From Sinorhizobium arboris LMG 14919 (GTDB lineage: Bacteria > Pseudomonadota > Alphaproteobacteria > Rhizobiales > Rhizobiaceae): DNA of 64,000 nucleotides. Position 1 is the stretch's first letter. Each line of letters opens with the position of its first letter. Positions 1-26,616 of the stretch are shown piece after piece. A program made the position numbers and the translations under genes. The notes under the pieces are model-generated. The model worked only from the letters and a program-made list of their open reading frames with translations, was not told the origin of the DNA and made no database searches. The stretch spans positions 4,162-68,161 of the forward strand of contig NZ_KE386497.1 in the NCBI RefSeq assembly GCF_000427465.1, written 5' to 3'.

Positions 1-7856
<7,856 letters not shown>

Positions 7857-9450: not shown

Positions 9451-9466
9451 TGTCGGAGACGGGACA
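9451..9466 (+). promoter_or_regulatory. Putative NifA upstream activator sequence (S46 peptidase promoter)
   Basis: TGT-CGGAGACGGG-ACA is an exact TGT-N10-ACA. It lies about 79 bp upstream of the start site expected from the -24/-12 element at 9512-9527. Confidence 0.6.
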
Positions 9467-9511
9467 TACATGGAGCGGTCTCCCCACGTTGTATTTGAAA
9501 CTGTTTTCCTT

Positions 9512-9527
9512 TGGCACGATTACTGCA
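9512..9527 (+). promoter_or_regulatory. Sigma54 (RpoN) -24/-12 promoter
   Basis: TGGCACGATTACTGCA has GG and GC separated by exactly ten bases and the strong TGGCACG -24 block. It points toward the S46 peptidase and the short ORF at 9584. The paired UAS upstream supports NifA control. Confidence 0.72.
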
Positions 9528-9583
9528 TCGGACGGTTGGCAACCGTCGCGGTATGCAATCCCATATAAGGAGAGGTGAGCGCA

Positions 9584-9883
9584 ATGCAGATGCGCGCGTT
9601 AACAGTCCACTGTGCCGTCACGGAGTGGCAGCCGCGAAGACGATCGAGCAGGGCCACCCCAGGTCCGACGGCGATGTTCAAGGAATACAGATCTGGCAGG
9701 CAGAACCCGAGCATATTGCATCGCTCTCCCGCGATCAGCTCGACGGGTGAACAGCGTCTCGCGCTGGTCATCGATACAGCCCACGAAATAAATCAGCCAC
9801 CAGGACGGGAGCTACATCAACATGAACTCAAATATGAAATGTTTGGCCCAAGCAAGTACCATCGCCTTGCTCTGGACCGCTAG
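9584..9883 (+). CDS. Possible short ORF directly behind the sigma54 promoter
   Basis: Ninety-nine codons, beginning MQMRALTVHCAV, preceded by a strong AAGGAGAGGTGAG site and sitting about 45 bp after the predicted start point of the sigma54 promoter. It overlaps the start of the S46 peptidase in another frame. The protein is basic with no recognised motif, and its codon pattern does not clearly look coding. It may be a real leader peptide or chance. Confidence 0.25.
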   Translation: MQMRALTVHCAVTEWQPRRRSSRATPGPTAMFKEYRSGRQNPSILHRSPAISSTGEQRLALVIDTAHEINQPPGRELHQHELKYEMFGPSKYHRLALDR

Positions 9884-11990
9884 CGCTGCGTCGGCGCATG
9901 AAGGTATGTGGATGCCCGACCAGACTGCAGAAATCGGCGCGGCCATGCGCGCGGATGGGCTCAAGATTGATCCCGCCCAATTGAGCCGTCTCGACGCTGC
10001 CCCGCTCAACGCGATCGTCTCACTCGGCGGATGCTCCGCCTCATTCGTCAGTCCCGAAGGGCTGGTCGCGACCAATCACCACTGCGTAGTGGGATCCCTC
10101 CAGAACATCAGCAAGGAGGGCGAGGACCATCTCACAGACGGCTTTCTGGCGAGAAGCCTGAGTGAAGAATTGCCTGCGGCTCGCGGCAGCCGCATCTATG
10201 TTATCGAAGATCAACGGGAAGTGACCGCCGACATGCTCAAGGGGATCTCGGCCGACCTGACCGGTTTTGCCCGCCATGAGCAGCTCGACGCTAACCGCAA
10301 GGCCCTGATCGCCGCGTGTGAAGAACAGCCCAACCGCCGCTGCGACGTGCGGGCCTATTATGGCGGCGCCTCCTACTACCTTCATGAGAAGCTCGAAATT
10401 CAGGACGTGCGCCTCGTCTATGCGCCCGCACGTGGCATCGGCGAATTCGGCGGCGAAAAGGACAATTGGATGTGGCCACGCCACACAGGCGACTTCGGCT
10501 TTTATCGCGCCTATGTCGCTCCTGATGGGTCCTCCCGGCCTTATGCGCCTGACAATGTGCCGTACCGGCCGAAGAACTGGCTGCGCATCGCCCGCGAAGG
10601 CCTCAAAGAGGGCGATTTTGTGATGGTCGCTGGCTTTCCCGGTACTACCGATCGGTTTCGCACCGCTGGGGAAGTCCGGTTCAACTTTGCGAAGTACGAA
10701 CCGCTATGGCAGCGTTGGCTCTCGAATTTTGCCGCCCAGATAAAGCAGGCCACGCTAGGCAACCGCACTGCGCAGATCCGCTACGCCTCCATCCTGCAAG
10801 GCGTGGAAAACTACGCGAAGAAGCTGGCGGGCGATCTCGCCGGCGCTGACGCGGTTGGGCTCAACGCTCGCAAGGTCACCGAGGAGACAGCTTATCGCAA
10901 CTGGGTCGCTAGCGATCCCGCGCGGCAGGCGCGCTATGGCGCGGCGATCCTCGAGCTGGATGCCATAGTGGAGGAGAGCAGCCGGGCCTCGCTCCAGGGG
11001 CTGGGGGCGGCGCTGCTCGGCCAATCGCGGATCCTCTCATCCGCGCGCACGCTCTATCGTTGGGCGAAGGAGCACGAGAAACCAGATGCCATCCGCGAAA
11101 GCGGCTTTCAGGATCGCGACCGCAGCGAGACCATCGATCGACTGACGCAGGTCGAACGCGAGTATCTGCCCAACATCGATCGCAAGCTGTTCGAGGCCGC
11201 ACTCGAGGAATATCACCGGCTGGACGCGAAGGACCGCGACACTGCGTTCGAGACCGCTCTGGGCCAAATCGGCCTTGATCGACTCTATGCAGAAACCAAA
11301 CTCGCCGACACGGCTACGCGGCTCGGCTGGCTCGATAAACCGGCTGCTGCTTTCGAGGCATCGGACGATCCTTTCATCAAGCTGGCGGTTGCACTTTATC
11401 CCGGCGAGATAGCCGCGGAGCGCACGAACAAGGATCTCGCCGGCCGCACGCAGGCGGCGCGCGCGACTTATATGCAGGCTCTGCTTGCCTATAGGAAGGC
11501 GATCGGCCGGCCCGTGTATCCCGACGCAAATGGATCGCTGCGCCTCACCTGGGGCAAGGTGGCGAGGCGAACGCAAGACGGGCAGATCTGGACGCCCTTC
11601 ACCACGGCCGAGGGACTGCTGGCCAAGCATACCGGAAAGGGTGAGTTCGACGCGCCCGAAGCCGCCATTGCCGCGATTCGCGCTAAGGACTATGGCCCCT
11701 ATGTCGCGCCAGCGCTGGGCACGTTACCGGTCGACTTCCTGTCCACGGTCGACATTACCAGTGGCAATAGCGGCTCGGCGACGTTGAATGGGCGCGGCGA
11801 GCTCGTTGGTCTCGCCTTCGACGGCACGCTAGAGGGCGTGATTGGGGACTGGGCCTTTCCCGGAGATCGCAATCGCAGCATCCACGTCGACAGTCGTTTC
11901 ATGCTCTGGACCATGGACAAGATCGACGCCGCGGACCGGTTGCTCAAGGAAATGGGAGTGCCGCCAGCGTCGGCTAGAAAACGGTTGTAA
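9822..11990 (+). CDS. Secreted S46-family dipeptidyl-peptidase (DPP7/DPP11-like)
   Basis: 722 residues. An N-terminal signal peptide (hydrophobic segment ending SAASAHE) predicts export to the periplasm. The chymotrypsin-fold S46 signatures are present: GGCSAS, catalytic His in TNHHC (residues 86-87) and the nucleophile in SGNSGS (Ser650). Eighteen residues after the Ser stands Gly668, matching the Gly of DPP7-type enzymes rather than the Arg of Asp/Glu-specific DPP11, so removal of dipeptides with a hydrophobic second residue is predicted. The family is typical of Bacteroidetes and xanthomonads and unexpected on symbiotic DNA. A NifA UAS and sigma54 promoter precede the gene, pointing to expression in nitrogen-fixing cells. 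A role in trimming peptides, including any product of the neighbouring NRPSs, is inference. Confidence 0.93.
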   Translation: MNSNMKCLAQASTIALLWTASAASAHEGMWMPDQTAEIGAAMRADGLKIDPAQLSRLDAAPLNAIVSLGGCSASFVSPEGLVATNHHCVVGSLQNISKEGEDHLTDGFLARSLSEELPAARGSRIYVIEDQREVTADMLKGISADLTGFARHEQLDANRKALIAACEEQPNRRCDVRAYYGGASYYLHEKLEIQDVRLVYAPARGIGEFGGEKDNWMWPRHTGDFGFYRAYVAPDGSSRPYAPDNVPYRPKNWLRIAREGLKEGDFVMVAGFPGTTDRFRTAGEVRFNFAKYEPLWQRWLSNFAAQIKQATLGNRTAQIRYASILQGVENYAKKLAGDLAGADAVGLNARKVTEETAYRNWVASDPARQARYGAAILELDAIVEESSRASLQGLGAALLGQSRILSSARTLYRWAKEHEKPDAIRESGFQDRDRSETIDRLTQVEREYLPNIDRKLFEAALEEYHRLDAKDRDTAFETALGQIGLDRLYAETKLADTATRLGWLDKPAAAFEASDDPFIKLAVALYPGEIAAERTNKDLAGRTQAARATYMQALLAYRKAIGRPVYPDANGSLRLTWGKVARRTQDGQIWTPFTTAEGLLAKHTGKGEFDAPEAAIAAIRAKDYGPYVAPALGTLPVDFLSTVDITSGNSGSATLNGRGELVGLAFDGTLEGVIGDWAFPGDRNRSIHVDSRFMLWTMDKIDAADRLLKEMGVPPASARKRL

Positions 11991-12661
11991 TGATGATACT
12001 GCGCTCGATCGGCTCGTCAGAAACAGCACTAAGGCTTGCCCGCAGGTTGGTGGACCGTCACCTCCAACCAGCTGGCCGCGGTCTCCTTCTGCTGCTCCAA
12101 GGTGAATGAGGAAAAGCCCGCGGGGGCCTGGACACGCGCCTTGCAGTTACATTCAGATTATGTGCGCAGGACCTGCCGCGCCGCTATCCCGCGTGCTGCT
12201 CCTCAGCGGAGTCAGGTGCACAACCTGTTGTGAGTGCCCGTTCCGCACCCTAAAGCTGGCACTCATGCTCTTGCGACTATCGATCTTTCACCCCCCTCTC
12301 CTGCCTCGCCAACCGAAGGGAGACCAGCCGTGGACTACATTGAGAAATCAAGCGAGCGACAATACACAATAGTGGGGTGGAGCATCCCGGGGTTGCTCGT
12401 GAGGGGATCGGGTGACGTTCAACACCACCAGCCTGCCATGGCGCCGCCCCTCTCGGAGAATTAGCAGAATATTCAAGATACTATGGGTTCTTCTTTGCAA
12501 AGTGCTTTCGCAGTTGGAGCGCCGGGGCGCTGGCCCACGGATATTGGTTCGCACCACTCACTCAGTCGATCCATCACCTTGTCACGGCTCACCATTGAGC
12601 GCTCCATCAGGCGCCGATCGCGCGTAACTGGAGAACGCGAGGCTTTGAGCCGGGGCTAACG
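11991..12661. other. Intergenic region between convergent S46 peptidase and PPTase genes
   Basis: About 670 bp with only small overlapping open frames and no recognised domain. A 44-codon GTG frame near 12330 has a purine-rich stretch before it but nothing else in its favour. I see no clear terminator hairpin with a T-run. Confidence 0.5.
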
Positions 12662-13300
12662 CTACCCCGCGATGAATACTGCAGTTAGTACTAGTCCATT
12701 TGCAATGCTGAAGCGGCCGCGGAGTTCCCAAGCACAATTGCGGGTCGGCATGAGCGTGTTCGGAAGCCGAGCAACAAACGTCCCGTCCGGAATGAAAGTG
12801 ATCACCGCGTCCTCGAATCCCAACCATTCACGTGTGAGCGGAAACCACGCTTTGAAGATGCTCTCCTTGGCACTGAAGAGCAATCGGCCCCAATTGAGGC
12901 GCCTTGGTGCGTTGGCCAGCCACTCTCGCTCCTCGTTAACCGAGATGAGCTCCAACACGCCCGACGGCAGCTCCTCATCGACTTCTGCATCGATTCCGAG
13001 CGCAACGTAGTCCTCCTGCAGGGCCACAGCGGCGGCACAGAATCCAGCACAATGTGTTATGCTGCCGACTATGCCGGCTGGCCAAACTGGTGCCCGGTCA
13101 GGTCCACTTGGGATGGCGCACGGAGGAAAGCCAAGCTTGGCTAATGCCGATCTGGCACAGGCTCGTCCGACGGAGAATTCACGCCTCCTGCTTTCGATCG
13201 CCCCAGCCACGGCACTCGCTTCTTCGGGCATCACTTCTGGGCCTCTACTTGCCCGAGAGGTTTGCACGGCTATATTGGATGGAAGCAGCGTCTCTATCAC
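12662..13300 (-). CDS. 4'-phosphopantetheinyl transferase (EntD/Sfp type)
   Basis: About 212 residues. Signatures: GSITHC near the middle, the metal-binding GIDAE, and the LLFSAKESIFKAW helix corresponding to the (W)-x-x-KE-x-x-x-K motif of Sfp-type transferases. It would move phosphopantetheine from CoA to the carrier serines of the two NRPSs (Ser1167 and Ser2267 in NRPS1, Ser585 and Ser1635 in NRPS2) and possibly NodF. The GTG at 13300 is preferred over an upstream TTG because AAAGGAAA lies six bases before it. The gene is on the same strand as both NRPS genes, downstream of the MATE exporter gene, but a repeat element separates them. Confidence 0.9.
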   Translation of the reverse strand: MIETLLPSNIAVQTSRASRGPEVMPEEASAVAGAIESRRREFSVGRACARSALAKLGFPPCAIPSGPDRAPVWPAGIVGSITHCAGFCAAAVALQEDYVALGIDAEVDEELPSGVLELISVNEEREWLANAPRRLNWGRLLFSAKESIFKAWFPLTREWLGFEDAVITFIPDGTFVARLPNTLMPTRNCAWELRGRFSIANGLVLTAVFIAG

Positions 13301-13400
13301 TTGAGATTTCCTTTCGCTCGAGCACAATTGAGTACCGCATGGAACGTTGCGCTTACGGCTGGCTACGGTCGCCGGACGGTTTTTTCGAGCGGCTTAAGCA

Positions 13401-13504
13401 CTACAGCGCCGCGCGTCTTATCAGACGCGCAAAGGTCGCTGTAGCACTTTGAATTGCTGCATGTTTTTGTCCTTAAAGTGGATACGATTTAAGGAAACAT
13501 GCAG
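13401..13504. repeat. RIME-like palindromic intergenic element, copy B
   Basis: About 104 bp, same orientation as copy A at 8787-8887. It begins CTACAGCGCCGCGCGTCT, has a GCGCGTCTTATCAGACGCGC palindrome and a second hairpin (TCCTTAAAG to TTTAAGGA), and ends ACATGCAG. It lies just past the MATE stop codon and upstream of the PPTase, so its hairpins may also act in transcript processing or termination. Confidence 0.68.
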
Positions 13505-13531
13505 TAGCAGCCAAGGGTGCATGACCTCGGA

Positions 13532-14926
13532 TTAGCGGTGCAGGAGCATTCCTTTGAGGTTGTTGAACTGCTTGACCGCTACAAAGATGGCAAGCAGTCC
13601 TGCCAGTAGCTCAGCAGCTGCCTGGCTGATCAATAATCCCGTGAATCCCCAAATACGAGGAAATAGTAGTATGGCTGGTACGAAGAGATATCCTTGCCTT
13701 GCGAAGGAAACGACGGCACTCAGGCGTGCTCTCCCGAACGACTGAAGCATGGTTATTACCACGTATTGGACGCCAAACAGCCCGAAAAAGAGATGGAACA
13801 TAATACAGGTGGAGACAGCGATTTCAGTCACATCCTCGCTGTCGCTGAAAAGGCTGACGATTGGCCGGGCGAAAATCACAACCACAGCAGAAAAGCTGAC
13901 TGAAAAGGCGCAGACTGTGGAAAGCATGAACGTCGCGGCCTTCTGCACCCGTGCAAAATCCTGTGCTCCCCAACTGAAACCAAGGACCGCCTGTGAGCCG
14001 ATGCAAAAGCCAACGATCGGGAATGTCCCGATCGTTAGCAATCGTGCGGCTATACCCACAGCGGCAATTGAATTGTCGCCGAATGTGGCAGCAGCCCTGT
14101 ACAAGAACATAAATGAAGCCGCTGTCAAAATACCGGTGATCGTCGCTGGGGCTCCAACGGCGGCTATCTGCTTTAATCGGTCGCCCCTCAAAGTGATGTA
14201 GGAAGCTCGGAAACGGACAATCCCGCGTTGCTTGGCGAAATATACGATGTACATGCTGGTGGCGACGATCTGGGACAACAGTGTTGCCAGCGCCGCGCCG
14301 CGAACTCCGAGATCCAGAGTGAAAATCAGAAGCGGATCGAGCAGGGCGTTCAACGTGAAAGCCGTAATCATCGTCCACATGCTGAACCGGGTGTTACCCT
14401 CAGCCCGTACGATGAACCCACTGACCATGTTCAACAGGATAAGAGTATAACCAACCAGGAGCGTCGAGGCATATTCGAGCGCGGCTGGCATTATCGTTGG
14501 ACTGGCGCCGAGCAAAGTGAGTGCGTCGCGCAAGCCGAAAAGGATGGTGACAGTAAGCGTCGTTCCGATCGGAACTACGAGACCGAGTGCCAAGCTCGCA
14601 CCACGACTCGCTTCCAATGAATTGCCAGCTCCAAGATTGCGGGACACGAATGATGCTGTACCGGCCCCGATCCCCTGCCCTACCGCAGACAGCAGCACCA
14701 CCAACGGCAAAGCAATGCTCACGGCCGCGATGGCCTGGGGGCCAAGCGTACCGACAAAGATTGCATTCACCGCTTGCTGAATTCCATTGATCGACAAACC
14801 GATAATCGACGGAATGGAAAGGCGCATGATGAGGTGGGAAACCTTGCCGTCCAACAAACTAATGTGGTCTGCCGGCGATGCCATGCGTTCGTCTTTGCCT
14901 TTGATATGTAGCTCCAACGGCCTCAT
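13532..14926 (-). CDS. MATE-family multidrug/natural-product exporter
   Basis: 464 residues with about twelve hydrophobic segments and the MATE layout: LSIPSIIGLSINGIQQ at the start, an FVGTLGPQAIAAVSIALPLV loop, and two symmetrical six-helix halves. It would exchange Na+ or H+ for an organic substrate across the inner membrane. Its ATG overlaps the NRPS2 stop as ATGA, so the two are translationally coupled and the likely cargo is the NRPS2 product. An internal ATG at 14884 (MASPADH) is an alternative start. Confidence 0.93.
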   Translation of the reverse strand: MRPLELHIKGKDERMASPADHISLLDGKVSHLIMRLSIPSIIGLSINGIQQAVNAIFVGTLGPQAIAAVSIALPLVVLLSAVGQGIGAGTASFVSRNLGAGNSLEASRGASLALGLVVPIGTTLTVTILFGLRDALTLLGASPTIMPAALEYASTLLVGYTLILLNMVSGFIVRAEGNTRFSMWTMITAFTLNALLDPLLIFTLDLGVRGAALATLLSQIVATSMYIVYFAKQRGIVRFRASYITLRGDRLKQIAAVGAPATITGILTAASFMFLYRAAATFGDNSIAAVGIAARLLTIGTFPIVGFCIGSQAVLGFSWGAQDFARVQKAATFMLSTVCAFSVSFSAVVVIFARPIVSLFSDSEDVTEIAVSTCIMFHLFFGLFGVQYVVITMLQSFGRARLSAVVSFARQGYLFVPAILLFPRIWGFTGLLISQAAAELLAGLLAIFVAVKQFNNLKGMLLHR

Positions 14927-17900
14927 CTGTTGGCCTCTGCAAACGCATCGACAGTCCGTTGCAGCTCTTCGCGCAAACTTGTGCAGAGGCTGCGGGTGGA
15001 TTCGTAGCCCACTTGTCTTGGATCGTATCTCACTTCAATTTGTAGTTTGCCCGACTGGTATCCGACACGAAACCAAAAGAGATAGTTCATAAGTGACTGA
15101 TTCATATCTTCGCCGATCCACAGCGGGTGTGGATCTGTGGATAGCAGGCGGCGCGGATAATGACGTTGGAGTCTCGCTCGATAGTTCACTCCGATCCGGG
15201 GTAACGGCAGACGATCGATCCGCTCCCGCACATCGGGATGCCGATTCAAGAACTTCAAAGCCCGGAAACCTATGCCCTTGCGCGGCAGCGCGCTGCGTTG
15301 CTGATATATAGAGCGAGCCCGGTCTTGACGAGACTCCGTTCCGGCAACGTATAACGGCAGGGGTACCAGTTCACCGATGTAGCCAATCGTTTGCGACGGA
15401 TCGATGTCGTCGAATAGACCTCCCCGGGTCGAAGTGAGACTGTCAATCCAGAGCGAGTAATTTCCGAAAGCGCGGCCAAATGCCCCCGAGATAGCCGCAA
15501 GCAATACATCAAAATCTTCGCAATGCGCAGACGTCGGCACAATCTTGAGAAGGCGCGTCGTCGTCTCCTCATCGAGCCTTAGACGGTATGTGGCCTGATC
15601 CTTCCATAGCGGCCTGCAGAATTTCTCATCGATTGGCCCATCGAAGCCTTCATAGTGGAGCCACCTCGCAGTTTCAGCCGAAAATCTTGCCGCACGTGAC
15701 CCGGCGTCACTTACACGGATATCAAACAACTCATACCGCAGACTCTCCCAATGTTGGAGCTCGGCTGGTGCTTCGCCATTCGCGTAATCATTCAATCGGG
15801 CGAGCCATTGAGAAAGGGGCGTGGTCCCTGGATCTGCAGCGATTCGGCCTGCAGCAAGCGAGCTATAAGCTTTATCGAGCGCATTCAGGAACAGCCTGTA
15901 TCCAACCCCGTCTGCTACAAAGTGATGCAGCAGAACAAGCAAATAGTAATCGCCGCTTTCTGATGTCCGGAAGGCTGAGACTTTGACAAGAGGCGTCCGG
16001 CCGTCAAATCGAAAACTGTGCTGACGCTCAGCACAGGCGCGCTCAATGACCGTGAGCTGTTCTGATGTGGCTACTCCGACAAGGTCTACTTCCTCTACAG
16101 GGCAATCTGCTATTGATCCGATTACCTGAGATAGACCCCTGTCCGTTTGGTTAATACGGAGCCTCAGTCCTTCCTCCCGCCCGATGACATGCACAAGGGC
16201 ACGTTCAAGAATGGAAATATTCAACAGGCCGGCGGGCATGAAGAAAAGATCGCCAATGTTGTAGTGCTCGCCCAGTCCAACAATACTATTCCAATGTGTG
16301 ACTGCAGGGGTTACCGGCAGCGATCCCTTGAGGGTCACACCTGTCGCCGCCGGCGCTTGGTGCGTTGCCAGTTGCCGGATCGTCGGTGTCCGGTGCAACT
16401 GACCGACCGTCAAGTTTACTCCCGCGTTACGCGCCAGTGTGACGCACCGCACACTCAGAAGCGAATTTCCGCCGACGTCAAAGAAGCTGTCATCAATGCC
16501 GATAGCTTTGGTGCCCAACAGCTCTTGCCAAATCGCGGCGAGGAGTTGCTCCCTTTCCGTGCGCGGTTCAGCCGATCTCGCTTTTCGGATCGGGCGGGAT
16601 GAAATGGAAGACAGACGAGCCCGATCTATTTTCCCGCTGGGTGTGAGCGGCATACGTTCCACCATCCGAAAATCCGACGGCAGCATGTAAGACGGAAGTG
16701 CCTGCCGCAGATGAGTTAGAATGTCTCCTGAAGTCAGATTTTCGTGAGTTGGGGCCAGAAGGGAAACGAGCCGCCGATCGTCATCCGCGCCTTCTACCAG
16801 AACCGCGGCTCGCGCAACGCCAGGATAAGATTCAAGCGCCGCTTCAATTTCCTCCAGCTCAATTCTGAAACCCCGAAGCTGAATTTGGTTGTCCGCTCGA
16901 CCGCAAATCTCCAGAAGGCCTTTGGGTGAAATGCGGGCGATATCGCCACTGCGATAAAGGACGCTGTACTGGCCTCCATCGTATGGGTTTGGCACGAAAG
17001 AGTGCTCAGTTCGCTCGGGGTCCTGCCAGTATCCTGCGCTCACACAGCGTCCTGCGAAGCAAAGTTCACCTGAGACTCCGACGGGAACCCGCTTCAACTC
17101 TGCATCAAGGACATAAACTTTCACATTATCGATCGGGCGCCCAACCGGAATAACTAACGAGCCATCGTCGGCATCCGATGTTCGGTACACCGCCGCATTA
17201 GATGCGCACTCCGTTGTGCCATAAAAATTCCATAGCGGCACATCTGGAAAGCACTCTCGCCAACGAATAGGAAGCGATGGCGGCATCGGTTCAGCACTGC
17301 TTGTAACCAGGCGCAAGCTGGTCGTTTTCGGCTGTCGCTTTTGAGAGGCGATTAACCCGGTCAAAATGGCCGGAGAGGCAAACAACCGCGTCACGTGATG
17401 CCTTGCTAATGCGCTCAACAAGAGGTCGGGGTCGAGCAACTGCTCATGCGTAAGGATCAGCGTCGGTACCCCCTTCAGGAGCCCTCCAAAATACTCCCAC
17501 ACCGCAGCAACAAGTACCGCTGACTTCTGAACAACCATCACGTCGGTACCATCGAAAGGAAAGCATCGCCACATCCAATTCAATCGATTGAGAATTGCAT
17601 ATTCCGGAATAAGAACGCCCTTCGCCTTACCGGTCGAGGATGAAGTATATATTAGGCTGGCTGCACCCTCCTCGAGTGGCTCGACAGCGCGCCGCGAGAC
17701 CCGGCCAGGGTCGTATCGAGCCTGCAGCGTAGACAGATTAACGCACGGCACACCGAAAGTGGCCTCTTCATCCGCGACGGCGTGAACAAGGAGGTTTGCC
17801 CCACTGTCCCTTATAATGTGGCCGATCCGTTCCTTCGGGAAACTTGGCGATATAGGCACGACGATCGCCTGCAAGTTCCGGATCGCCAAAGTAGTGGCCG

Positions 17901-20900
17901 CTACATCTGGAGACTGGTCGACCAGTATGGCGACGCTGTCACCCGCGCCCACCCCGCAAGCTTGCAGAACGGACTGGATCGTAGCCACGCGTTTGCGCAA
18001 CTGACCAAACGTGATTGTGCCGAACTCGCCGAAAAAAGCCACTTGATCGACAGTTGAAGCGCTCACTTGATTAAATGCTTCCACAAGCGAAGGCTCACCC
18101 TCACCTAACGGCTCATCGCCCTGTAGCGCGTCTAAAAAAGCGACTTCCGACGGACTGAGGCCGCTCAGCGCCACAATCGGCTCGTGTGGCCTCTCGACAC
18201 AGGCAGCAATGAGATAGCGAAGATTGTCGGCCATGCGAGCGATCACATCGCTCGAAAAACTGTCTTTGGCATAGGCCAGTTGCAACGCAATTGCGTCGCC
18301 TTCGTCTTGCGCGTAAAGGGTGAGATCGAATTTCACATAGCCTGTGTCATATTCGCGAAATGTCAGCTCCAAATCACGTTTTGCTGGGGGCTCCGGAGGC
18401 TCGGAGTACATGTTAAACATGACTTGGAAAATAGGCGATTGACCAGGTTCGCGGTGGAATCGAGTATCCTGAACCATCCAGCTAAATGGATACGCCGAGT
18501 TCGCGATAGCATCGCTTATGAGGCTCTGCACGTTGGTCGCGTGCGTCACAAAGGATTTATTAACATCGATCGTAGTTCGGATTGGCAGCATGTTGAGGAA
18601 GAATCCCACGATCTTCTCGGTGCCTGGTTGACCACGCACCACATGCGGTATGCCAACGACGACATCGTCTTGCCCGCTATACATTCGCAACAACAGCTTG
18701 AAACAAGCCAAGAGGATCGTAGAAGTCGTGCATCTGTGCCGGCGTGCAAAGTCTCGCACGTGATCGGACAGTTCGCGCTCAAGGAAAAACGCATGCGAGC
18801 TCCCACGCCACGAGTTCTCTTCCGGCCGCGGTCGCCTGCTCCCCAGCGAAAGTACCGGAGGATTGTCGCCTATCTGCCGACGCCAATACCGCCGCTGATC
18901 ATCGAGCGAGTTCGGTGTAATGTGTACACTTTCCCAATGAGCATAGGTCGAGAGGGATGTGCGTTCCGCTGGAGAGAACGCAGCGGCATTGGAGTATCTT
19001 GTCTGCAAGTCTCTGAGGAAGACAGAGATCGACCACGCATCGATGATGATTTCGTGCGCGCTTATCAATATGAGATGGTCATCCTCGCCGAGGCGGATCA
19101 TCCGCGCACGAAACAAACGTCCTTGACTGAGGTCAAAGGTGTTGTTGAGCTCCGTGCGCCGCAGCTCCGCCACTAGTTCATCGGCCTCCGTTTGAGTCAG
19201 GTGAGTGGCGTCCACCAACTCTAGGTCGGAGCGCTGCGGATCATCAAAAATCTGAACCGGCCCGTCTTCGTCGCTGAAACGTGCTGAGAGCGCGTCATGC
19301 GCCTGAACAACATCGAACCAGGCTTCATTGAATGCGGCGAGATCGATGGCGCCTCGTATACGCAGCCCGCCCTGAATAATATAGTTCTTCGCAGCCGGAT
19401 TGAGCTGCCAGAGAAACCAGAGGTGTTCTTGCACTTGCGTCAGGGGTGACCGTTTTAGCTTCCCGCTCGCAGGAAGCAAGTTCTGGGTTGTCTTGGATTG
19501 GCTTGATATCGCCGCCCCTAGAGATCTGATGGTCCCATTCAGAACAAGCCTGAAATCCACCTTTGCCGCGAGCTGCCTCTGTATCTGAGCCAATATAAGC
19601 ATCGCCCGGAGCGAGTCGCCGCCAAGATCCAAGAATTGGTCGTTGGCGCCGATAACTTCGATCCCAAGAACGTTGGACCAAATCTCTCGCAGTGTGCTTT
19701 CGAGCTCCGTCTTTGGCTCCTCGAACGGGCTCAGCAGTTCGGGGCGAACGGTCGTCGGGTCCGGCAATGACGCGAGATCCACCTTGCCGTTTGAGGTGAT
19801 CGGGAATCGGTCGACACGAATGATTCGTTCTGGAATCATGTATCGGGGAAGCACTTCGGCGACAAAGCTTCGGAGTTCCCTCTCTGTTAGTTCGGCAGGA
19901 GCCGACACATAGGCCACTATTCGTCTTCGTCTGGATTCGCGATTGGTACAGGTTATGTCGCGTGCGGTTAGTTTCACGCTCTCGTGGACGGGTGCGGTAG
20001 CCACTGCGGCAGTTACCAGAGGATGAGCGCATAGGTGAGACTCGATCTCTCCAAGTTCGATCCGGTGCCCCCGCAGCTTGATCTGACGATCTCGTCTACC
20101 TAGACATTCCAGAAGGCCGTCTGCCCTGATGCGTCCGAGATCGCCGGTCCTGTAGAGGTGTCGATAGGATGGGTCGTCGGAGAAAGGGTTTGGCACAAAG
20201 GCATCTCTGGTACGGTCGCTATCGTTGATGTATCCATCAGCGACACCGACTCCGCTGACATGGATCTCGCCGACTTCCCCCGCCTTGCACAGGCGCAAAC
20301 CATTGGCGACATAAACCTCAAGATTGGAAATCGGCCTGCCGATGGGCACATAGGTGTCCGCTGCGCTGGGTGGGACCGATATCAAATGGTGCGTCACCCC
20401 GTCCGCACATTCTGTCGGGCCGTAGTGATTGAGAATGGGGACTTGAGGATAGAGCGTCAGCCAACTGCGCGCCAAGGCAGGTGTCAGCGGTTCGCCGACC
20501 GTAGATACCATGCGTAAGGCACCGAGGAGCCGCTCCGTGGCTGAGAGCGTCTGCAGGTGTTCAACGAATATGGCGAGCACCGATGGAACGAATTGGACGA
20601 CTGCGACCCGATGTGCCTGCAGTGCTTTAAGAAGCGCCAAGGGAGATCTCAGCGTCGCATCATCTATGATCGCGACGCAACTGCCGACACACAATCCTGC
20701 CAAAAGCTGCCATAGGGAGATGTCAAAGCCATGAGAGGCAGTCTGTGCGACACAGTCCTGCTCACTTATTTCGAGCGCATTTATCTTGGCCATCAAATGG
20801 TTGTTTAGGCCCGCGCGCTGAACCATCACGCCCTTGGGCCGTCCCGTCGAACCGGACGTAAACAGAATGTAAGCGAGACGGGGTTCAGCCGAAGATGGCA

Positions 20901-21366
20901 TTGCAGGAGAGAAACGGCTACCGAGTAGCGCCGTCTCCACCGTCATGAATTGTCTGGCGCCGTCGCAGTCTTTCTCAAAGAGACCAAGCGCCTCCGGTTT
21001 TTCTGGCCCGATAATCAGTGTGCATCCACTTTGCTTAATCATGAAGGAAATTCGGGAGGCTGGTAAGGATGGATCGAGCGGCAAATATGTTGAGCCGCTT
21101 TTCAGAATGGCGATTACTGTGGCTGCCCAATTAGAGTTCCGTTCGCCGCAATAGGCCACGACCGCGCCATCCGCGCAGCGCTCCCGTAGGGTGTTTGCGA
21201 TGGTACCTGACAGCACCCGCAGCTCACCATATGTGAGCTCCTCCGAGCCATGCTGGATTGCAATCCTGTCGGGGGATGATGCCGCAATCTTGTCGATAGC
21301 CGCGACTACATCGATGAACTGGCTTCCGACAAATTCGGGCTTCGCAGGTCGAACTTCGTTAAGCAT
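14923..21366 (-). CDS. Nonribosomal peptide synthetase (NRPS2), A-T-C-A-T-E-like
   Basis: 2147 residues. Order: A1 (about 20-540; TSGSTGRPKGVMV; NHYGPTECADG), carrier Ser585 (LGGDSL), C (about 640-1060), A2 (about 1100-1600), carrier Ser1635 (VGGNSL), and a terminal condensation-superfamily domain (about 1680-2147; HHFVADG at 1814). The terminal domain resembles epimerases (GYIGELVPL, KGIGF) but lacks their EGHGRE glutamate motif. There is no N-terminal C domain and no thioesterase. Oddities: the internal C motif reads HEIIIDA at 771-777, losing the catalytic second His, and A2 has Val near residue 1286 where alpha-amino acid adenylators have Asp235 (LVAAVWEYF) plus a TSSSTGKAKGV loop, so its substrate is probably not a plain alpha-amino acid. 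GAGAGGAG precedes the ATG. A NifA UAS and a near-consensus sigma54 element lie upstream. Confidence 0.95.
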   Translation of the reverse strand: MLNEVRPAKPEFVGSQFIDVVAAIDKIAASSPDRIAIQHGSEELTYGELRVLSGTIANTLRERCADGAVVAYCGERNSNWAATVIAILKSGSTYLPLDPSLPASRISFMIKQSGCTLIIGPEKPEALGLFEKDCDGARQFMTVETALLGSRFSPAMPSSAEPRLAYILFTSGSTGRPKGVMVQRAGLNNHLMAKINALEISEQDCVAQTASHGFDISLWQLLAGLCVGSCVAIIDDATLRSPLALLKALQAHRVAVVQFVPSVLAIFVEHLQTLSATERLLGALRMVSTVGEPLTPALARSWLTLYPQVPILNHYGPTECADGVTHHLISVPPSAADTYVPIGRPISNLEVYVANGLRLCKAGEVGEIHVSGVGVADGYINDSDRTRDAFVPNPFSDDPSYRHLYRTGDLGRIRADGLLECLGRRDRQIKLRGHRIELGEIESHLCAHPLVTAAVATAPVHESVKLTARDITCTNRESRRRRIVAYVSAPAELTERELRSFVAEVLPRYMIPERIIRVDRFPITSNGKVDLASLPDPTTVRPELLSPFEEPKTELESTLREIWSNVLGIEVIGANDQFLDLGGDSLRAMLILAQIQRQLAAKVDFRLVLNGTIRSLGAAISSQSKTTQNLLPASGKLKRSPLTQVQEHLWFLWQLNPAAKNYIIQGGLRIRGAIDLAAFNEAWFDVVQAHDALSARFSDEDGPVQIFDDPQRSDLELVDATHLTQTEADELVAELRRTELNNTFDLSQGRLFRARMIRLGEDDHLILISAHEIIIDAWSISVFLRDLQTRYSNAAAFSPAERTSLSTYAHWESVHITPNSLDDQRRYWRRQIGDNPPVLSLGSRRPRPEENSWRGSSHAFFLERELSDHVRDFARRHRCTTSTILLACFKLLLRMYSGQDDVVVGIPHVVRGQPGTEKIVGFFLNMLPIRTTIDVNKSFVTHATNVQSLISDAIANSAYPFSWMVQDTRFHREPGQSPIFQVMFNMYSEPPEPPAKRDLELTFREYDTGYVKFDLTLYAQDEGDAIALQLAYAKDSFSSDVIARMADNLRYLIAACVERPHEPIVALSGLSPSEVAFLDALQGDEPLGEGEPSLVEAFNQVSASTVDQVAFFGEFGTITFGQLRKRVATIQSVLQACGVGAGDSVAILVDQSPDVAATTLAIRNLQAIVVPISPSFPKERIGHIIRDSGANLLVHAVADEEATFGVPCVNLSTLQARYDPGRVSRRAVEPLEEGAASLIYTSSSTGKAKGVLIPEYAILNRLNWMWRCFPFDGTDVMVVQKSAVLVAAVWEYFGGLLKGVPTLILTHEQLLDPDLLLSALARHHVTRLFASPAILTGLIASQKRQPKTTSLRLVTSSAEPMPPSLPIRWRECFPDVPLWNFYGTTECASNAAVYRTSDADDGSLVIPVGRPIDNVKVYVLDAELKRVPVGVSGELCFAGRCVSAGYWQDPERTEHSFVPNPYDGGQYSVLYRSGDIARISPKGLLEICGRADNQIQLRGFRIELEEIEAALESYPGVARAAVLVEGADDDRRLVSLLAPTHENLTSGDILTHLRQALPSYMLPSDFRMVERMPLTPSGKIDRARLSSISSRPIRKARSAEPRTEREQLLAAIWQELLGTKAIGIDDSFFDVGGNSLLSVRCVTLARNAGVNLTVGQLHRTPTIRQLATHQAPAATGVTLKGSLPVTPAVTHWNSIVGLGEHYNIGDLFFMPAGLLNISILERALVHVIGREEGLRLRINQTDRGLSQVIGSIADCPVEEVDLVGVATSEQLTVIERACAERQHSFRFDGRTPLVKVSAFRTSESGDYYLLVLLHHFVADGVGYRLFLNALDKAYSSLAAGRIAADPGTTPLSQWLARLNDYANGEAPAELQHWESLRYELFDIRVSDAGSRAARFSAETARWLHYEGFDGPIDEKFCRPLWKDQATYRLRLDEETTTRLLKIVPTSAHCEDFDVLLAAISGAFGRAFGNYSLWIDSLTSTRGGLFDDIDPSQTIGYIGELVPLPLYVAGTESRQDRARSIYQQRSALPRKGIGFRALKFLNRHPDVRERIDRLPLPRIGVNYRARLQRHYPRRLLSTDPHPLWIGEDMNQSLMNYLFWFRVGYQSGKLQIEVRYDPRQVGYESTRSLCTSLREELQRTVDAFAEANR

Positions 21367-21432: not shown

Positions 21433-21449
21433 TTCAAAACTCGTGCCAA
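21433..21449 (-). promoter_or_regulatory. Candidate sigma54 -24/-12 element of the NRPS2-MATE operon
   Basis: On the minus strand TTGGCACGAGTTTTGAA has an excellent -24 block, but the -12 dinucleotide ten bases later is GA instead of GC. It lies about 70 bp upstream of the NRPS2 start, with a TGT-N10-ACA motif about 118 bp further upstream of the expected start site. Confidence 0.45.
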
Positions 21450-21532: not shown

Positions 21533-21548
21533 TGTCACGGACGCTACA
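21533..21548 (-). promoter_or_regulatory. Putative NifA upstream activator sequence for NRPS2
   Basis: TGT-CACGGACGCT-ACA matches TGT-N10-ACA exactly. Its spacing from the -24 block at 21446 is typical for NifA-activated promoters. Confidence 0.5.
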
Positions 21549-21923
21549 AACAGACGGCGGTGCCGGTTACGCACGTTTCTGAGGAATAGCGGTCAGGAGA
21601 GTGTGAACCCGGCAACATTTGGAGCAATTTTCGCTGTCTCGGATCCTGACGCGCCCAAGACCCAGCGCGGGCAAACGAGGTTACCGGCCCTTTGCACCAT
21701 CGGTATCGATGCACTACCAGCACTCTGCCGCAGGACGCAAGGGAAGGAAGCAAGGGACGGAAGCAATGGCGGGATGGCAGGTCCGAGAGGCGAGCTTACA
21801 AGCAAGACTCACACGTGCGAGTCGGCTTGTTCTTGCTCGCCGCCATGCACTGGGTCGGTAGCTTCTATAGCGCGCCGCGTTACCTTTGCAGGGGTAATCT
21901 CCGAGCAAAAAGTGTTCAGTATA
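21549..21923. other. Intergenic region between NRPS2 and nodF
   Basis: Divergent promoter region. Apart from the NifA and nod box motifs at its two edges I see no gene or further recognisable signal. Confidence 0.5.
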
Positions 21924-21970: not shown

Positions 21971-22177
21971 TAGTCGATGGTGCATATAAAATGTACTTAA
22001 CATACAAGTGATTTTCTATGAATTTTGCTCTCTATACCAGAATCCATGCATGTTCATTCCAGTTCAATCGTAATCCACTTAGCTCGCCATGCGAGATTCG
22101 AGAGGCGCAGCATTCGAAGTATGCCGACCAGTATTAACACGGCCTCGAGATCGAAACGTATAATGGAAGGAACCGGT

Positions 22178-22444
22178 GTGTCCGATCAACTCGTTGAAGA
22201 CGTTATAGCTACAATCAGGAAGCGCGCCGGGGCAGCTACATCGGCGGATTGCGAAGAAATAACAGTCGCTACGGAACTAACCTCGCTCGGCCTTGATTCA
22301 CTCGACCTGGCGGATCTTCTCTGGGACCTCGAGGAAGCCAATAACGTTGAGATCCACATGAACATAGCGGATGCCTGGTCAAATCTTCATACCGTCGGCG
22401 ATTTGGTGGAAGCCCTGCGTACCTTAATGGCAAAGGTGTCTTGA
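22178..22444 (+). CDS. nodF: NodF, specialised acyl carrier protein for Nod factor acyl chain
   Basis: 88 residues. The phosphopantetheine site is the Ser of GLDSLDLADLLWDLE, and IEMNxADAWSNL-type NodF residues follow (IHMNIADAWSNL). NodF carries the growing polyunsaturated acyl chain used by NodA. The GTG start is chosen because SDQL follows it as in NodF (ADQL) and GGAAGGA is six to seven bases upstream; the longer frame to 22025 runs into the promoter. nodE follows without a gap. Confidence 0.93.
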   Translation: MSDQLVEDVIATIRKRAGAATSADCEEITVATELTSLGLDSLDLADLLWDLEEANNVEIHMNIADAWSNLHTVGDLVEALRTLMAKVS

Positions 22445-23653
22445 ATGGATAAACGCGTCGTCATTACCGGGGTCGGCGGGCTATGCGCCCTCGGCAGCAA
22501 TGCGGCCTCCATTTGGCGAGGCATGTGTGCTGGCATTTCCGCCATCGGGCCGATCTCCAATGCCGAGCTTTATGAGCTAGACGGCATTATCGGTGCCGAG
22601 ATCAAAGTACTGCCGGAGCACGACATCTGCAAAAAGCAACTCGCCTCCATGGATCGTTTCAGCCTACTTGCTGTGCTTGCTGCCCGTGAGGCGGTAGAGC
22701 AGGCGGGGCTTTCCTGTGACGAATGGAATGCCGATCGCTATGGTGCAACTGTTGGCGTCGGCATTTGTGGCTCCGAGGCAGTTGAGGAAAATTACCGCGC
22801 CCTGCTTTTGGACGGCGCCAAGCGGACCGGGATCCTCACTGTTCCGAGAGTGATGCCTGGTGCCGCTGCGGGCCAAGTTAGCATCCATCTGGGCTTGCGC
22901 GGGCCAGTTTTCGGCGTCACTGCCGCGTGCGCCTCCGCCAACAATGCAATCGCCTCGGCGGTGGACCTGATCAGGCTCGGCCGAGCCGACGTCATGATTG
23001 CCGGCGGTAGCGATGCACCGCTCGTATGGGGTGTACTAAAATCATGGGAAGCGTTGCGCGTTCTTGCACCGGACACTTGCCGCCCCTTCTCTGCAGACAG
23101 AAAGGGCGTGGTACTCGGAGAGGGTGCTGGTATGGCTGTGCTGGAAAGCTATCAACATGCAAAAGCGCGCGGTGCAACGATCCTGGCTGAGATCGCCGGC
23201 ATTGGCCTTTCGGCGGACGCCTTCCATATTGTTGCACCGATTGCCGAAGGGCCAGAGGCTGCGATGCGTCAGTGCCTTCAAGACGCCGGGCTGAATGCCG
23301 ATGATGTCGACTATCTCAACGCACACGGCACCGGCACCAAAGCGAATGATGAGGTTGAGACGGCGGCGATCAAGCGGGTTTTTGGGGATCATACTCGCTC
23401 GATGTCGGTCTCGTCCACCAAATCTATGCATGGACATTGTCTCGGTGCAGCAAGCGCGCTCGAAATGATTGCCTGTGTGATGGCTATCCGCGATGGGATT
23501 GTCCCGCCCACGGCAAACTACAACGAGCATGATCCAAAATGCGATCTCGACGTCACGCCAAATGTGCCCCGCGAACGAGAGGTACGAGTAGCGTTGAGCA
23601 ACGCGTTCGCCATGGGAGGCACAAACGCGGTTCTGGCATTCAGACAGGTGTAG
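22445..23653 (+). CDS. nodE: NodE, beta-ketoacyl synthase for unsaturated Nod factor acyl chain
   Basis: 402 residues, full length for NodE. It is a FabF-like ketosynthase: active-site Cys162 in [14 protein letters not shown], and the His motifs [11 protein letters not shown] and [13 protein letters not shown]. With NodF it builds the alpha,beta-unsaturated C16-C20 acyl chains that set host range, especially toward galegoid legumes. It shares the nod box transcript with nodF. It sits more than 26 kb from nodABC, next to the NRPS genes and a virG ghost, so the pair was probably acquired or moved separately. Confidence 0.95.
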
Positions 23654-23746
23654 CAGCGGCGCGTCATGCCGTGTCCAGTTAACGGCTCCTGTTCTGCCTC
23701 GATCGTTAAAACGCGCTCCGGTCCGGTCCCATGACTCGACGCTTCA

Positions 23747-23807
23747 AAGCAACGCCGGCTGATCTCTGAACACAGCGGTGGGGTGAAGCTGACGCCCCGT
23801 GAGCTCT
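23747..23807 (+). pseudogene. Ghost fragment of a second virG
   Basis: About 60 bp closely resembling codons inside virG at 45687-45747 (shared AAGCAACGCCGG, TGATCTC-GAACACAGCGG and AAGCTGACG runs). The translated remnant reads QRRLISEHSGGVKLTPREL. No start or remaining receiver domain is present. Confidence 0.7.
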
Positions 23808-23876
23808 GGAGACCTGAATGTCTTTGCCGACCGTGCTACAAACGCAAAGAGGCTACCCATGGGCGACGGGACTCTC

Positions 23877-24050
23877 GCGACGCTGATCATGAGCGCCAAG
23901 CTTAACGACGTCGATCCGCAGGCATGGCTTGCCGACGTGCTCGCTCACACCGCCGACACCCCGATCACCAGGCTCGGGCAATTGCTCCCGTGGAATTGAC
24001 AGGCAACAAAGTTCCTACAGCATCAGGCTGCCTAACCTGCGGCCCTGGCG
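23877..24050 (+). pseudogene. IS66 transposase (TnpC) C-terminal fragment, copy 1
   Basis: Encodes ATLIMSAKLNDVDPQAWLADVL, the conserved C-terminal region of IS66 transposases, and ends with a PWN-like tail. It is nearly identical to 27090-27262 in the same orientation; copy 2 retains an extra upstream SDRG segment. Confidence 0.85.
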
Positions 24051-24247
24051 ACGTGGCTTGCGTGCATAGTATCCATGGAGGGGTGCGCGGGGGCGCGTTA
24101 TTGGCGCGCTGTTGGCGAACGGCGGGATTTGTCGGCGCATCTGGTGCAGATTTTTTGGTTCCACCCGTCGTGCGCGCCCCAAGTCTCCGCCCTCGCCGCC
24201 GGCTTCATCTTGCTCAAATCGGCCCGCACGGCCTAAGGCTTATGGAT
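24051..24247. other. Short spacer between IS66 fragment and prolyl oligopeptidase stop
   Basis: No gene seen. It contains GC-rich inverted segments near 24080-24120 (for example GGGGGCGCGTTATTGGCGCG) but no clear terminator T-run. Confidence 0.4.
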
Positions 24248-26431
24248 TCATGTGTTGTCCATGAGCTTTTGAGACAGGTAGGTGTATTCGAGCGCGTAGC
24301 GGCGGGCTTGTTCCTGCAGGTTGGCGGCGCCGGCGTGACCGCCCTCAATATTTTCATAATAGTAGAAGGGCAGCCCCATATCTTCAAACAAGGCGGCCAT
24401 CTTGCGCGCGTGCACCGGACCGACGCGGTCATCCTTTGTCGATGTCTCGAAGAACGGTTCGGGATAGGCCACGCCCGCCCTGACATTATGATAAGGCGAG
24501 ATCGAGCGCAGGAAGGCGCCTTCGACTGGGTCGTCTGGATTGCCATATTCGCCCTGCCAGGAGGCTCCTGCCGACATGTGGGTGAAATTGACCATGTCGA
24601 GAAGCGGCACCTGGATCACGACCGCGTTCCATAGATCGGGGCGCTCGGTCAATTGCACGCCCATGAGCAGGCCGCCGTTCGAGCCGCCCATGATCCCGAG
24701 ATGCGGTGTCGAGGTGACCTTCCTTGCGATCAGATCCTGCGCCACGGCCTGGAAGTCGTCAAAAGCGCGCCGACGATCGGTCTTCAAAGCAGCTTCGTGC
24801 CATTTCGGTCCGAATTCGCCGCCGCCGCGAATATTGGCCAGCGCGAAGGCACCGCCCTTTTCCAGCCATAGCTTGCCCAGCGCCGGCGAATAGTTGGGCA
24901 ACACTGGAATTCCGAAACCGCCATAGGCGTAGAGGATGGTCGGGTTCGTGCCGTCCAGCTTGACATCCCTGCGCGCCACGAGGAAATACGGAACCTTCGT
25001 GGCATCCTTCGAGGTCGCAAAGAACTGCTGGACTTGCAGGCCTTCGGCATCGAAGCGTTCCGGGGCCGACCTGATCTTCTCGACTGTGCCGCTTGCAGCA
25101 TCGGCGCGAAACAGGGTCGAAGGTTCGAGGAACCCTGTTGAGAAGACGAACAGCTGATCACTCTCATTGTCGCTGGACGTCACCGACAGGGTCGAATTTT
25201 CCGGCAGGGCCACCTTGAAGGACGACCAGCCGCCCTTACCGAAATCGAAGCTGCGCACCTCGCTGCTGACATTCGACAGGATCGACAGCACGAGACGGTT
25301 CTTGGTTTGAGTAATACTTTTGACAGACTGATGCTCGTTTGGCATGAACAGCACAAGCGGTTCGACGTGCGCTGGATCGGCGAGCGCCGCCTTGAGATCG
25401 AAAGCGATAATCGCGCCATTGTGGAAAACGGTGCCCTTGGCCGAGGTCCAGTCCGACTTCAACCGATAGATTGCCTGGCCCTTGTAGTAGCCGTCAAAAG
25501 TGGCCCTGGTCGGGAGGGGCAGGACCACCTTTTGGGTGTCGGTGTGGCCGTTCGGGTAGAACGCTCGCTCGGTATTGAAGAAGTCGAGGCCGCGATAGGA
25601 GGTGTCCATCACATAATTGCCGTCGAAGTCGCGCAGCACGCCGCGCCGAGCCGAGACGTCCTTCTTGTCGCCGCGGAAGATCTCGACCGCCTGATCCAGG
25701 CTCTGCCCTCGCTTCAGCACCTTGGTGACGTAGGCGTAGCCGGAAGCGGTCACTTCCCCCGGCGTCCATTCCCGGGTCACATAGATGGTGTTCTCGTCCA
25801 CCCAGGTCACCCACTGCTTGCATTCGGGCAGGACGAAGCCGTCCTTAATGAATTCACCCTTGGCAACGTCGAATTCGCGCACCACATCCGCATCCTTGCC
25901 GCCATCGGACAGGCGGATCAGGCAGAGATTGTTGGCGGGGGGCAGGCAGTCCCCGCCTTTGAACACCCAGGTCTTTCCCTCGGCCTTGGACAGCGCATCG
26001 ATATCGAGAATGGTGCGCCATTGCGGGTCGCCGGACCTGTAGGATTCCCAGGTCGTACGTCGCCACAGGCCCTGCACGTGCGTGCCGTCCCGCCAGAAGT
26101 TATCGATCATTCCGCCGTGCGCGAACCGGGGCGAAGCAATCCGATCGGTGGCCTGTAGGATGTTCAGAATGTCGGCCAGGTATTCGCTGTACCGAGGATC
26201 TTTCGACAGCTTGTCGACGGTTGACAGGTTACGCGTTTTGACCCAGGTCATCGCCCTGTCGCCGTCGATCTCGTTCAGATAGGCGCGAGGATCGGCGGCA
26301 TGCTCGGGAGCCTGATTGGGGTTGGAATCGATCGCCTTGGCGACCGTGGTCATCTGGCCAGAAGCCCCCATGGTGGTCACCGTAGCAGGGTCATTGCCAT
26401 CATCAAGCTGGTTCACAAATGTGGCTCGCAT
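24248..26431 (-). CDS. Prolyl oligopeptidase family protein (S9A)
   Basis: 727 residues, cytoplasmic (no signal peptide): N-terminal beta-propeller and C-terminal alpha/beta-hydrolase with Ser584 in GGSNGGLL, Asp in TKDDRVGP and His in EGGHAG near residue 699. It resembles the catalytically typical S9A group that cleaves small peptides, often after proline. The ATG at 26431 has GAAAGG seven bases upstream and is preferred to the GTG at 26455. A consensus sigma54 promoter and a NifA UAS lie upstream. The gene is bracketed by direct repeats of an IS66 fragment. In other pathways S9 enzymes remove leaders from, or cyclise or hydrolyse, small peptides; a link to the NRPS product is inference. Confidence 0.93.
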   Translation of the reverse strand: MRATFVNQLDDGNDPATVTTMGASGQMTTVAKAIDSNPNQAPEHAADPRAYLNEIDGDRAMTWVKTRNLSTVDKLSKDPRYSEYLADILNILQATDRIASPRFAHGGMIDNFWRDGTHVQGLWRRTTWESYRSGDPQWRTILDIDALSKAEGKTWVFKGGDCLPPANNLCLIRLSDGGKDADVVREFDVAKGEFIKDGFVLPECKQWVTWVDENTIYVTREWTPGEVTASGYAYVTKVLKRGQSLDQAVEIFRGDKKDVSARRGVLRDFDGNYVMDTSYRGLDFFNTERAFYPNGHTDTQKVVLPLPTRATFDGYYKGQAIYRLKSDWTSAKGTVFHNGAIIAFDLKAALADPAHVEPLVLFMPNEHQSVKSITQTKNRLVLSILSNVSSEVRSFDFGKGGWSSFKVALPENSTLSVTSSDNESDQLFVFSTGFLEPSTLFRADAASGTVEKIRSAPERFDAEGLQVQQFFATSKDATKVPYFLVARRDVKLDGTNPTILYAYGGFGIPVLPNYSPALGKLWLEKGGAFALANIRGGGEFGPKWHEAALKTDRRRAFDDFQAVAQDLIARKVTSTPHLGIMGGSNGGLLMGVQLTERPDLWNAVVIQVPLLDMVNFTHMSAGASWQGEYGNPDDPVEGAFLRSISPYHNVRAGVAYPEPFFETSTKDDRVGPVHARKMAALFEDMGLPFYYYENIEGGHAGAANLQEQARRYALEYTYLSQKLMDNT

Positions 26432-26493
26432 GTTTCGCCTTTCGAAAAGCCTCACGTGTCGAAGCGGTTAAAACCGGCTTCGCCCCTCTTCTC

Positions 26494-26509
26494 AGCAACA
26501 GGTGTGCCA
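26494..26509 (-). promoter_or_regulatory. Sigma54 -24/-12 promoter of the prolyl oligopeptidase gene
   Basis: On the minus strand TGGCACACCTGTTGCT is a perfect GG-N10-GC element, 63 bp upstream of the chosen ATG. Confidence 0.75.
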
Positions 26510-26600
26510 GTCACATACGTTTAAAGGGAACATTGAATTTCAACGGCTTGTACGAGCCAGTGGGAAGTCGTGTAGGACAAGCCCCCTTGATGTCAGACAA

Positions 26601-26616
26601 TGTCAGACATGCGACA
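26601..26616 (-). promoter_or_regulatory. Putative NifA upstream activator sequence for the prolyl oligopeptidase gene
   Basis: TGT-CAGACATGCG-ACA, centred about 125 bp upstream of the expected start site. The TGTCAGACA word is repeated directly at 26591 and 26601. Confidence 0.6.

Follow-up and report, generated by a model that had tools for sequence, protein, structure and literature searches.

The 64,000 nucleotides of Sinorhizobium arboris LMG 14919 analysed here (the window; positions 4162-68161 of contig C5, which comprises 799,691 bp of an assembly of 6,850,303 bases in 7 contigs) contain a large nonribosomal peptide synthetase (NRPS) gene, termed NRPS2, which is followed by genes for a MATE family exporter and a 4'-phosphopantetheinyl transferase (PPTase) in what is likely a single operon, and which is accompanied by genes for an S46 family dipeptidyl peptidase (S46) and a prolyl oligopeptidase family serine peptidase (POP; Table 1). 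As nodC, nodU, nodJ and ccoG/fixG all reside in the window and both nifH (C5:108244) and nifA (C5:132303) on the same contig, this DNA, which its nearest relatives place in the Sinorhizobium/Ensifer group, is symbiotic. This agrees with a preceding prediction made from the nucleotide sequence alone (in the following, the original prediction), which had further proposed that the genes constitute a NifA/sigma54-controlled natural product pathway with its own PPTase, exporter and peptidases.

Table 1. Positions (in the window) of the genes and candidate promoter elements. A, adenylation; T, carrier; C, condensation; E, epimerisation; UAS, upstream activator sequence.
Feature	Position	Strand	Basis and remarks
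UAS of S46, TGT-N10-ACA	9451..9466	+	motif scan
-24/-12 of S46	9512..9526	+	motif scan
S46 family dipeptidyl peptidase	9822..11990	+	722 aa; PF10459 (1.7e-220, residues 25-712)
PPTase, third gene of the NRPS2 operon	12662..13327	-	PF17837, PF01648
MATE family exporter	13532..14926	-	PF01554, TIGR00797; start overlaps NRPS2 end by 4 bases
NRPS2	14923..21366	-	2147 aa, A-T-C-A-T-E-like; Pfam domains, motif survey
-24/-12 of the NRPS2 operon	21434..21448	-	motif scan; A at -12
UAS of NRPS2	21533..21548	-	motif scan
Second UAS-type site of NRPS2	21602..21617	-	motif scan; 169 bp from -24/-12; present also in L044, L104
POP	24248..26455	-	735 aa; PF02897, PF00326
-24/-12 of POP	26495..26509	-	motif scan
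UAS of POP, TGT-N10-ACA	26601..26616	-	motif scan

NRPS2 is a single chain with two PF00501, two PF00550 and two PF00668 stretches. A motif survey of those 57 among 63 copies whose frame is open over more than 2000 aa reveals that the nine listed positions of the substrate pocket of the first adenylation domain, A1 (numbered after GrsA), are identical throughout (D I W Q S V H D G). In the column of Asp235, which was verified by alignment to LgrA, all 57 sequences have Asp in A1 but Val (52) or Ile (5) in A2, the remaining pocket positions of which read A W F T S F S N with rare changes. Since A1 keeps the Asp and A2 does not, A1 would be expected to load an alpha-amino acid and A2 an acid without an alpha-amino group. 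Both carrier serines are conserved in this sample, and both carrier domains might be primed by the PPTase of the operon. The middle condensation domain has HExxxDA instead of HHxxxDG in 57/57 sequences and would thus be devoid of the second catalytic His; as PvdL likewise has DA, only the His-to-Glu change is unusual. The terminal domain is closest to epimerisation domains, with those of PvdL, tyrocidine synthase 1 and bacitracin synthase 3 (PDB 9lcp, 2xhg, 9rde) as nearest solved relatives. It has HHxxxDG in common with them, but their EGHGRE is replaced by LTSTRG in the window, and at the first position of this motif, where the racemase glutamate would be expected, none of the 57 sequences has Glu (Leu in 55, Ile in 1, Met in 1). 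With the His and the Glu both lost, the joining or the release of the product is probably non-standard. In two relatives, E. aridi (L097) and S. kostiense (L104), NRPS2 has shrunk to roughly 1100 aa in a single frame, and S46, POP, MATE and PPTase are retained.

With respect to its distribution, a search of 5.8 billion proteins, in which the best 120 of 7550 scored clusters were considered, yielded 61 clusters at least 63% identical to NRPS2, the remainder being at most 34% identical; all named members of these 61 belong to Ensifer/Sinorhizobium, Rhizobium, Mesorhizobium or Bradyrhizobium. MATE adjoins NRPS2 in 61 of 62 loci (it was not found in L075), and PPTase lies inside the 5-kb flank in 19 of the 62, including two from Bradyrhizobium. 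Among 265 Bradyrhizobium genomes, NRPS2 was found in 64 (1320-aa query, E up to 1e-250), nodC in 135 and both in 63, so that nodC is present in 63/64 of the NRPS2-bearing compared with 72/201 of the other genomes (Fisher P 1.3e-21, a value which ignores shared descent). NRPS2-MATE is a unit common to four rhizobial genera and tied to nodC in Bradyrhizobium, and the dedicated PPTase and exporter of the original prediction are both borne out, being coupled to NRPS2 in one operon. Two NRPS2 copies are located on one contig of Bradyrhizobium nanningense (L068, L090).

More distant homologs of 37-38% identity, here called type II, form a clade of their own, apart from NRPS2, and are found in S. psoraleae, S. 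numidicum, S. garamanticum and Paraburkholderia atlantica as well as in Rhizobium sp. 007, T136, T1470 and T1473 and on rhizobial plasmids. They have the domain order of NRPS2, the same listed A1 pocket in the two that were tested, and an adjacent MATE gene in the four loci examined; in Rhizobium sp. T136, type II, MATE and PPTase lie right behind nifD-K-E-N-X and fdxB, an IS630 copy being located in between. However, a Sorangium protein is equally close (38%) to the truncated NRPS2 of 1320 aa that represents a B. japonicum cluster (P0067), and this level of identity is therefore not limited to rhizobia.

According to the original prediction, NRPS2, S46 and POP are each preceded by a TGT-N10-ACA UAS and a correctly oriented -24/-12 element, which motif scans confirmed. 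All three -24/-12 elements have the GG and G core and 10 of the 11 consensus letters, and the UAS are within helical reach, at 61 bp (start to start) for S46, 100 bp for NRPS2 and 107 bp for POP. The predicted spacing of 80-125 bp fits the interval from the UAS to the expected transcription start but not to the start codon, the ATG of S46 being about 310 bp away from its -24/-12. A -24/-12-like site of opposite orientation (window 26651-26665, plus strand) shares the UAS of POP, and no open reading frame (ORF) of at least 100 aa starts within 500 bp behind it.

Either motif by itself was rejected as evidence, as their counts in the window are at chance level: there are 11 UAS compared with 7.92 expected, a count attained by 18 of 100 shuffles, and 36 -24/-12 elements with at most two mismatches compared with 29.45 expected, a count attained by 13 of 100 shuffles. 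In contrast, pairs, defined as a -24/-12 with at least 9/11 consensus letters and an exact TGT-N10-ACA 40-170 bp upstream, occur 34 times in 794,574 bases of C5 but only once in 400,000 bases taken as two runs of the chromosome contig C4. Of the C5 pairs, 20 have at least 10/11 letters, whereas seven, according to a crude test, fall within ORFs of more than 900 bp and are probably due to chance or to misread starts. One pair is followed by nifH and others by nifB, nifS and fixA, these three having been named by eye from the protein. Given the abundance of pairs on C5, including the one before nifH, S46, NRPS2 and POP are therefore members of a broad candidate NifA regulon on this contig and not a private set. 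Further candidate NifA promoters are located at C5:198111 (MFS-like, by eye), C5:215378 (LuxR-type regulator), C5:335881 (cytochrome P450) and C5:351303 (aquaporin family).

The conservation of UAS and promoters in relatives was assessed by the test that the original prediction had itself named. For S46, five upstream regions were aligned (window, L142, L014, L147, L148), of which all have a -24/-12 of at least 9/11 letters and four an exact UAS, with one mismatch in L014. Likewise, a -24/-12 with at least 10/11 letters is present in 11/11 aligned regions upstream of POP (including the window), several of which stem from near-identical S. fredii plasmids. For NRPS2, 800 bp upstream were searched in 60 close-ortholog loci, usually one per species, and the pair was found in 10/12 loci from Sinorhizobium/Ensifer, 3/3 from Mesorhizobium and 1/4 from Rhizobium (14/19 outside Bradyrhizobium), but in 9/41 from Bradyrhizobium, six of the latter with 10 or 11 letters and three with 9; control windows of 800 bp from the same loci contain it in 6/1678 cases. 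Plasmid copies of NRPS2 that were retrieved separately have the pair in 3/4 cases, and in a tree the Bradyrhizobium copies of sufficient length with a strong pair make up one subclade (support 0.911). All four scanned type II loci have an exact UAS, the paired -24/-12 reaching at least 9/11 letters in L101 and L102 and 8/11 in T136, with none in S. numidicum. Judged from the pair counts by genus, Rhizobiaceae and Mesorhizobium appear to have retained NifA control well; most Bradyrhizobium appear to lack it or to have it in altered form. The predicted NifA/sigma54-type control thus finds support in the relatives for all three genes, though not for NRPS2 of most Bradyrhizobium nor in the exact UAS of POP (see below). 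No exact FixK-type match was found upstream of the pair-less Bradyrhizobium NRPS2 copies. Of two other candidate elements that were discarded, a tts-like box gave a single weak match, in a locus that has the pair (L103), and the nod-box core, with matches of 1-3 mismatches in nearly every locus, was uninformative.

As for the peptidases, S46 begins with what looks by eye like a signal peptide, and its nearest solved structure is dipeptidyl aminopeptidase BII (4y06, 4.2e-173), while its match to the DPP7 model remains below the cut-off of that model. Its TNHHC, DNWMWPRH and SGNSGS align with 4y06, and we take these His, Asp and Ser motifs to be the catalytic ones. POP consists of a propeller and a catalytic domain with GGSNGG, aligned to its nearest solved structure, a post-proline cleaving enzyme (4hvt, 1e-114). 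In Mesorhizobium sp. L-2-11 (L147:4989-11383), S46 is found a few genes away from a Nif11-type precursor of a ribosomally synthesised and post-translationally modified peptide and a radical SAM epimerase.

The original prediction regarded both peptidases as belonging to the NRPS pathway, in which they would mature or turn over its product, or protect against it, all under the control of NifA. The three genes are indeed neighbours, in the window as well as in L044, L097 and L104, and the promoter elements precede all of them. However, those three loci are the only ones of the 62 NRPS2 loci in which S46, POP and NRPS2 occur together within 5-kb flanks, and both peptidases are absent from the flanks of most; a 65%-identical piece of S46 lies beside the unit in L066. 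Conversely, POP orthologs (80-90%) were found on 19 plasmid records, three with NRPS2, three with type II and 13 with neither, and S46 orthologs on seven records, none with NRPS2, three with type II and four with neither, where, however, two of the four are apparently (by accession) sister plasmids of NRPS2 plasmids, and separation at the strain level is thus not proven. In 247 drawn genomes of the family, POP (at least 86%) is present in four and S46 in two, and in NGR234 POP is located near nodU and nodS. The assumption of one pathway with its own peptidases is not upheld by these records, a role of the two enzymes in serving the NRPS is decidedly improbable, and maturation of the NRPS product by them is unlikely.

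Alternatively, the peptidases might form a NifA-driven battery digesting peptides of the host nodule, by analogy to HrrP, an M16 peptidase that digests nodule-specific cysteine-rich (NCR) peptides. In line with this possibility, candidate NifA promoters on C5 also precede an M16 peptidase (C5:84415-85953) and an omptin (C5:330196-331362), and the omptin bll1872 of B. diazoefficiens appears among the NifA and RpoN targets in Table 2 of PMC6515984, being 115.4-fold up in bacteroids. We regard this proposal, which presumes a host that makes such peptides and enzymes that accept them, as possible but still somewhat doubtful; nevertheless, it seems more probable that there is a NifA-driven set of peptidases than that these two enzymes serve the NRPS.

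Taken together, we consider it reasonably probable that the locus harbours a nodule-stage small-molecule operon, NRPS2-MATE-PPTase, under the control of NifA and sigma54, together with separate, co-regulated peptidases. Judged from the promoter elements, NifA and sigma54 likely switch on this operon along with nitrogen fixation, and a small product would then be exported by MATE, whereas S46, POP, the M16 peptidase and the omptin would be separate members of the regulon, with peptides of the nodule or the envelope as likelier substrates than the NRPS product. This product could also be a metal carrier that supplies nitrogenase with metals instead of a signal or competition factor. NifA control would suit the metal need of nitrogenase, and many two-module NRPSs produce metal binders; but no receptor, monooxygenase or catechol genes were seen beside the operon in the four annotated relatives, and the exporter is a MATE protein, for which reasons a metal carrier appears rather unlikely.

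Several observations weigh against a NifA-controlled nodule-stage operon. The pair is absent within 800 bp in 32/41 Bradyrhizobium loci, among which those that were aligned do not retain the sigma54 core; three of the four Rhizobium loci retain the -24/-12 without an exact UAS; and the exact UAS of POP is present in 2/11 regions only (window and L121), the other nine having sites with one mismatch. Furthermore, 6/63 copies of NRPS2 are truncated or collapsed, and NRPS2 is hence dispensable in some strains. To this one may add that the association with nodC may in part reflect shared descent, that expression data for the NRPS2 operon were not found in the literature searched, and that the published NRPS blr2108 of B. 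diazoefficiens (see below) is no more than a possible ortholog of NRPS2. The truncated copies, such as P0067, and the lack of the pair in most Bradyrhizobium would also be compatible with an operon of little function that is carried along on symbiotic DNA and is decaying. Yet 57 of the 63 frames are open over more than 2000 aa with invariant active-site residues, and the promoter elements are retained across genera; decay is accordingly an improbable explanation.

The gene set found in several rhizobial genera, which in many of them bears a switch of the type used by nitrogen fixation genes, probably makes a small molecule that may have gone unnoticed among the chemical products of nodules. 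More tentatively, and somewhat less likely than not, NRPS2-MATE might make one conserved small molecule, so far without a description, which would be released under NifA control by the bacteroids of many alpha-rhizobia as a common output of fixing nodules, would act on host, kin or competitors, and would be assembled via re-tooled condensation and terminal domains. If so, a natural product would leave fixing nodules that has escaped notice because it is silent in free-living culture, and NifA would be seen, in a defined case, to govern secondary metabolism and peptidases alongside nitrogenase. The conservation of the A1 residues over four genera argues for a common product, and therefore a single knockout combined with a metabolite comparison could open up the whole class.

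The surrounding DNA contains further systems. The formyl-initiating NRPS that the original prediction had counted among these genes is real (PF00551), but it starts at 7856 and reads leftward, outside of 9451..26616, and no minus-strand pair of UAS and -24/-12 exists between this start and the NRPS2 promoter. It is part of a very large formyl-initiated NRPS system (window 1-7856, minus strand) which is divided by assembly breaks and extends over C5:1-12017, C5:785001-799691, C6 and C7, with condensation domains at both ends of C5 and on C6 and C7, and with a second formyl domain (55%) at C6:5897-6805. Between NRPS2 and POP, a pair of genes for a carrier protein and a ketoacyl synthase (window 22025-23653, plus strand) is kept in L044, L097 and L104, and no plus-strand UAS/-24/-12 pair was found upstream of it. 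Finally, a type IV secretion set with VirD4, VirB4, VirB9 and VirB11 and a VirA-like sensor kinase (window 27268-45000) lies beside the nod genes.

Amongst known systems, the rhizopine (mos) genes direct the NifA-driven synthesis of a compound by bacteroids, with enzymes that differ from those of the NRPS2 operon. The view that no rhizobial pathway of this make-up has been described holds insofar as no paper on such an NRPS operon was found in the literature searched, but a NifA-dependent NRPS, blr2108 of B. diazoefficiens, has been listed as a target of NifA and RpoN (PMC6515984, Table 2; PMC4926349, Table 3). In the tables considered here, blr2108 is 39.0-fold up in soybean bacteroids, with a protein log2 value of 6.5 in microoxia (PMC6515984), and has a log2 value of -4.6 in nifA nodules (PMC4926349), while its transcript is given as unchanged by microoxia alone; it is also listed as a nodule-regulated gene in strain 113-2. 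In common with NRPS2, blr2108 is an NRPS, and its dependence on NifA and induction in bacteroids match what is proposed for the NRPS2 operon; its product, operon and exporter are not described in the parts of the two papers considered. Among the clusters listed, none bears the name B. diazoefficiens, and a scan of a few genes flanking one truncated NRPS2 locus did not reveal the neighbours that are printed for blr2108 in USDA110. The matE gene Bphy_7634 of P. phymatum, with a log2 value of -8.21 in nifA nodules in the data considered (PMC8305402), was weighed as support but not used; a query with the P. atlantica MATE returned 47 plasmid records, none from Paraburkholderia, from a collection that may not include pBPHY02. 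The main text of the study on the NifA-RpoN regulon of M. loti R7A (PMC3538637) contains none of the words peptidase, prolyl, nonribosomal or non-ribosomal. In the portions of that study considered here, the rule of a UAS and a -24/-12 is the same as applied above, 16 candidate promoters are given on the symbiosis island, and an A at -12, as in the element of the NRPS2 operon, is tolerated in nifH promoters, being printed in those of M. loti and R. etli.

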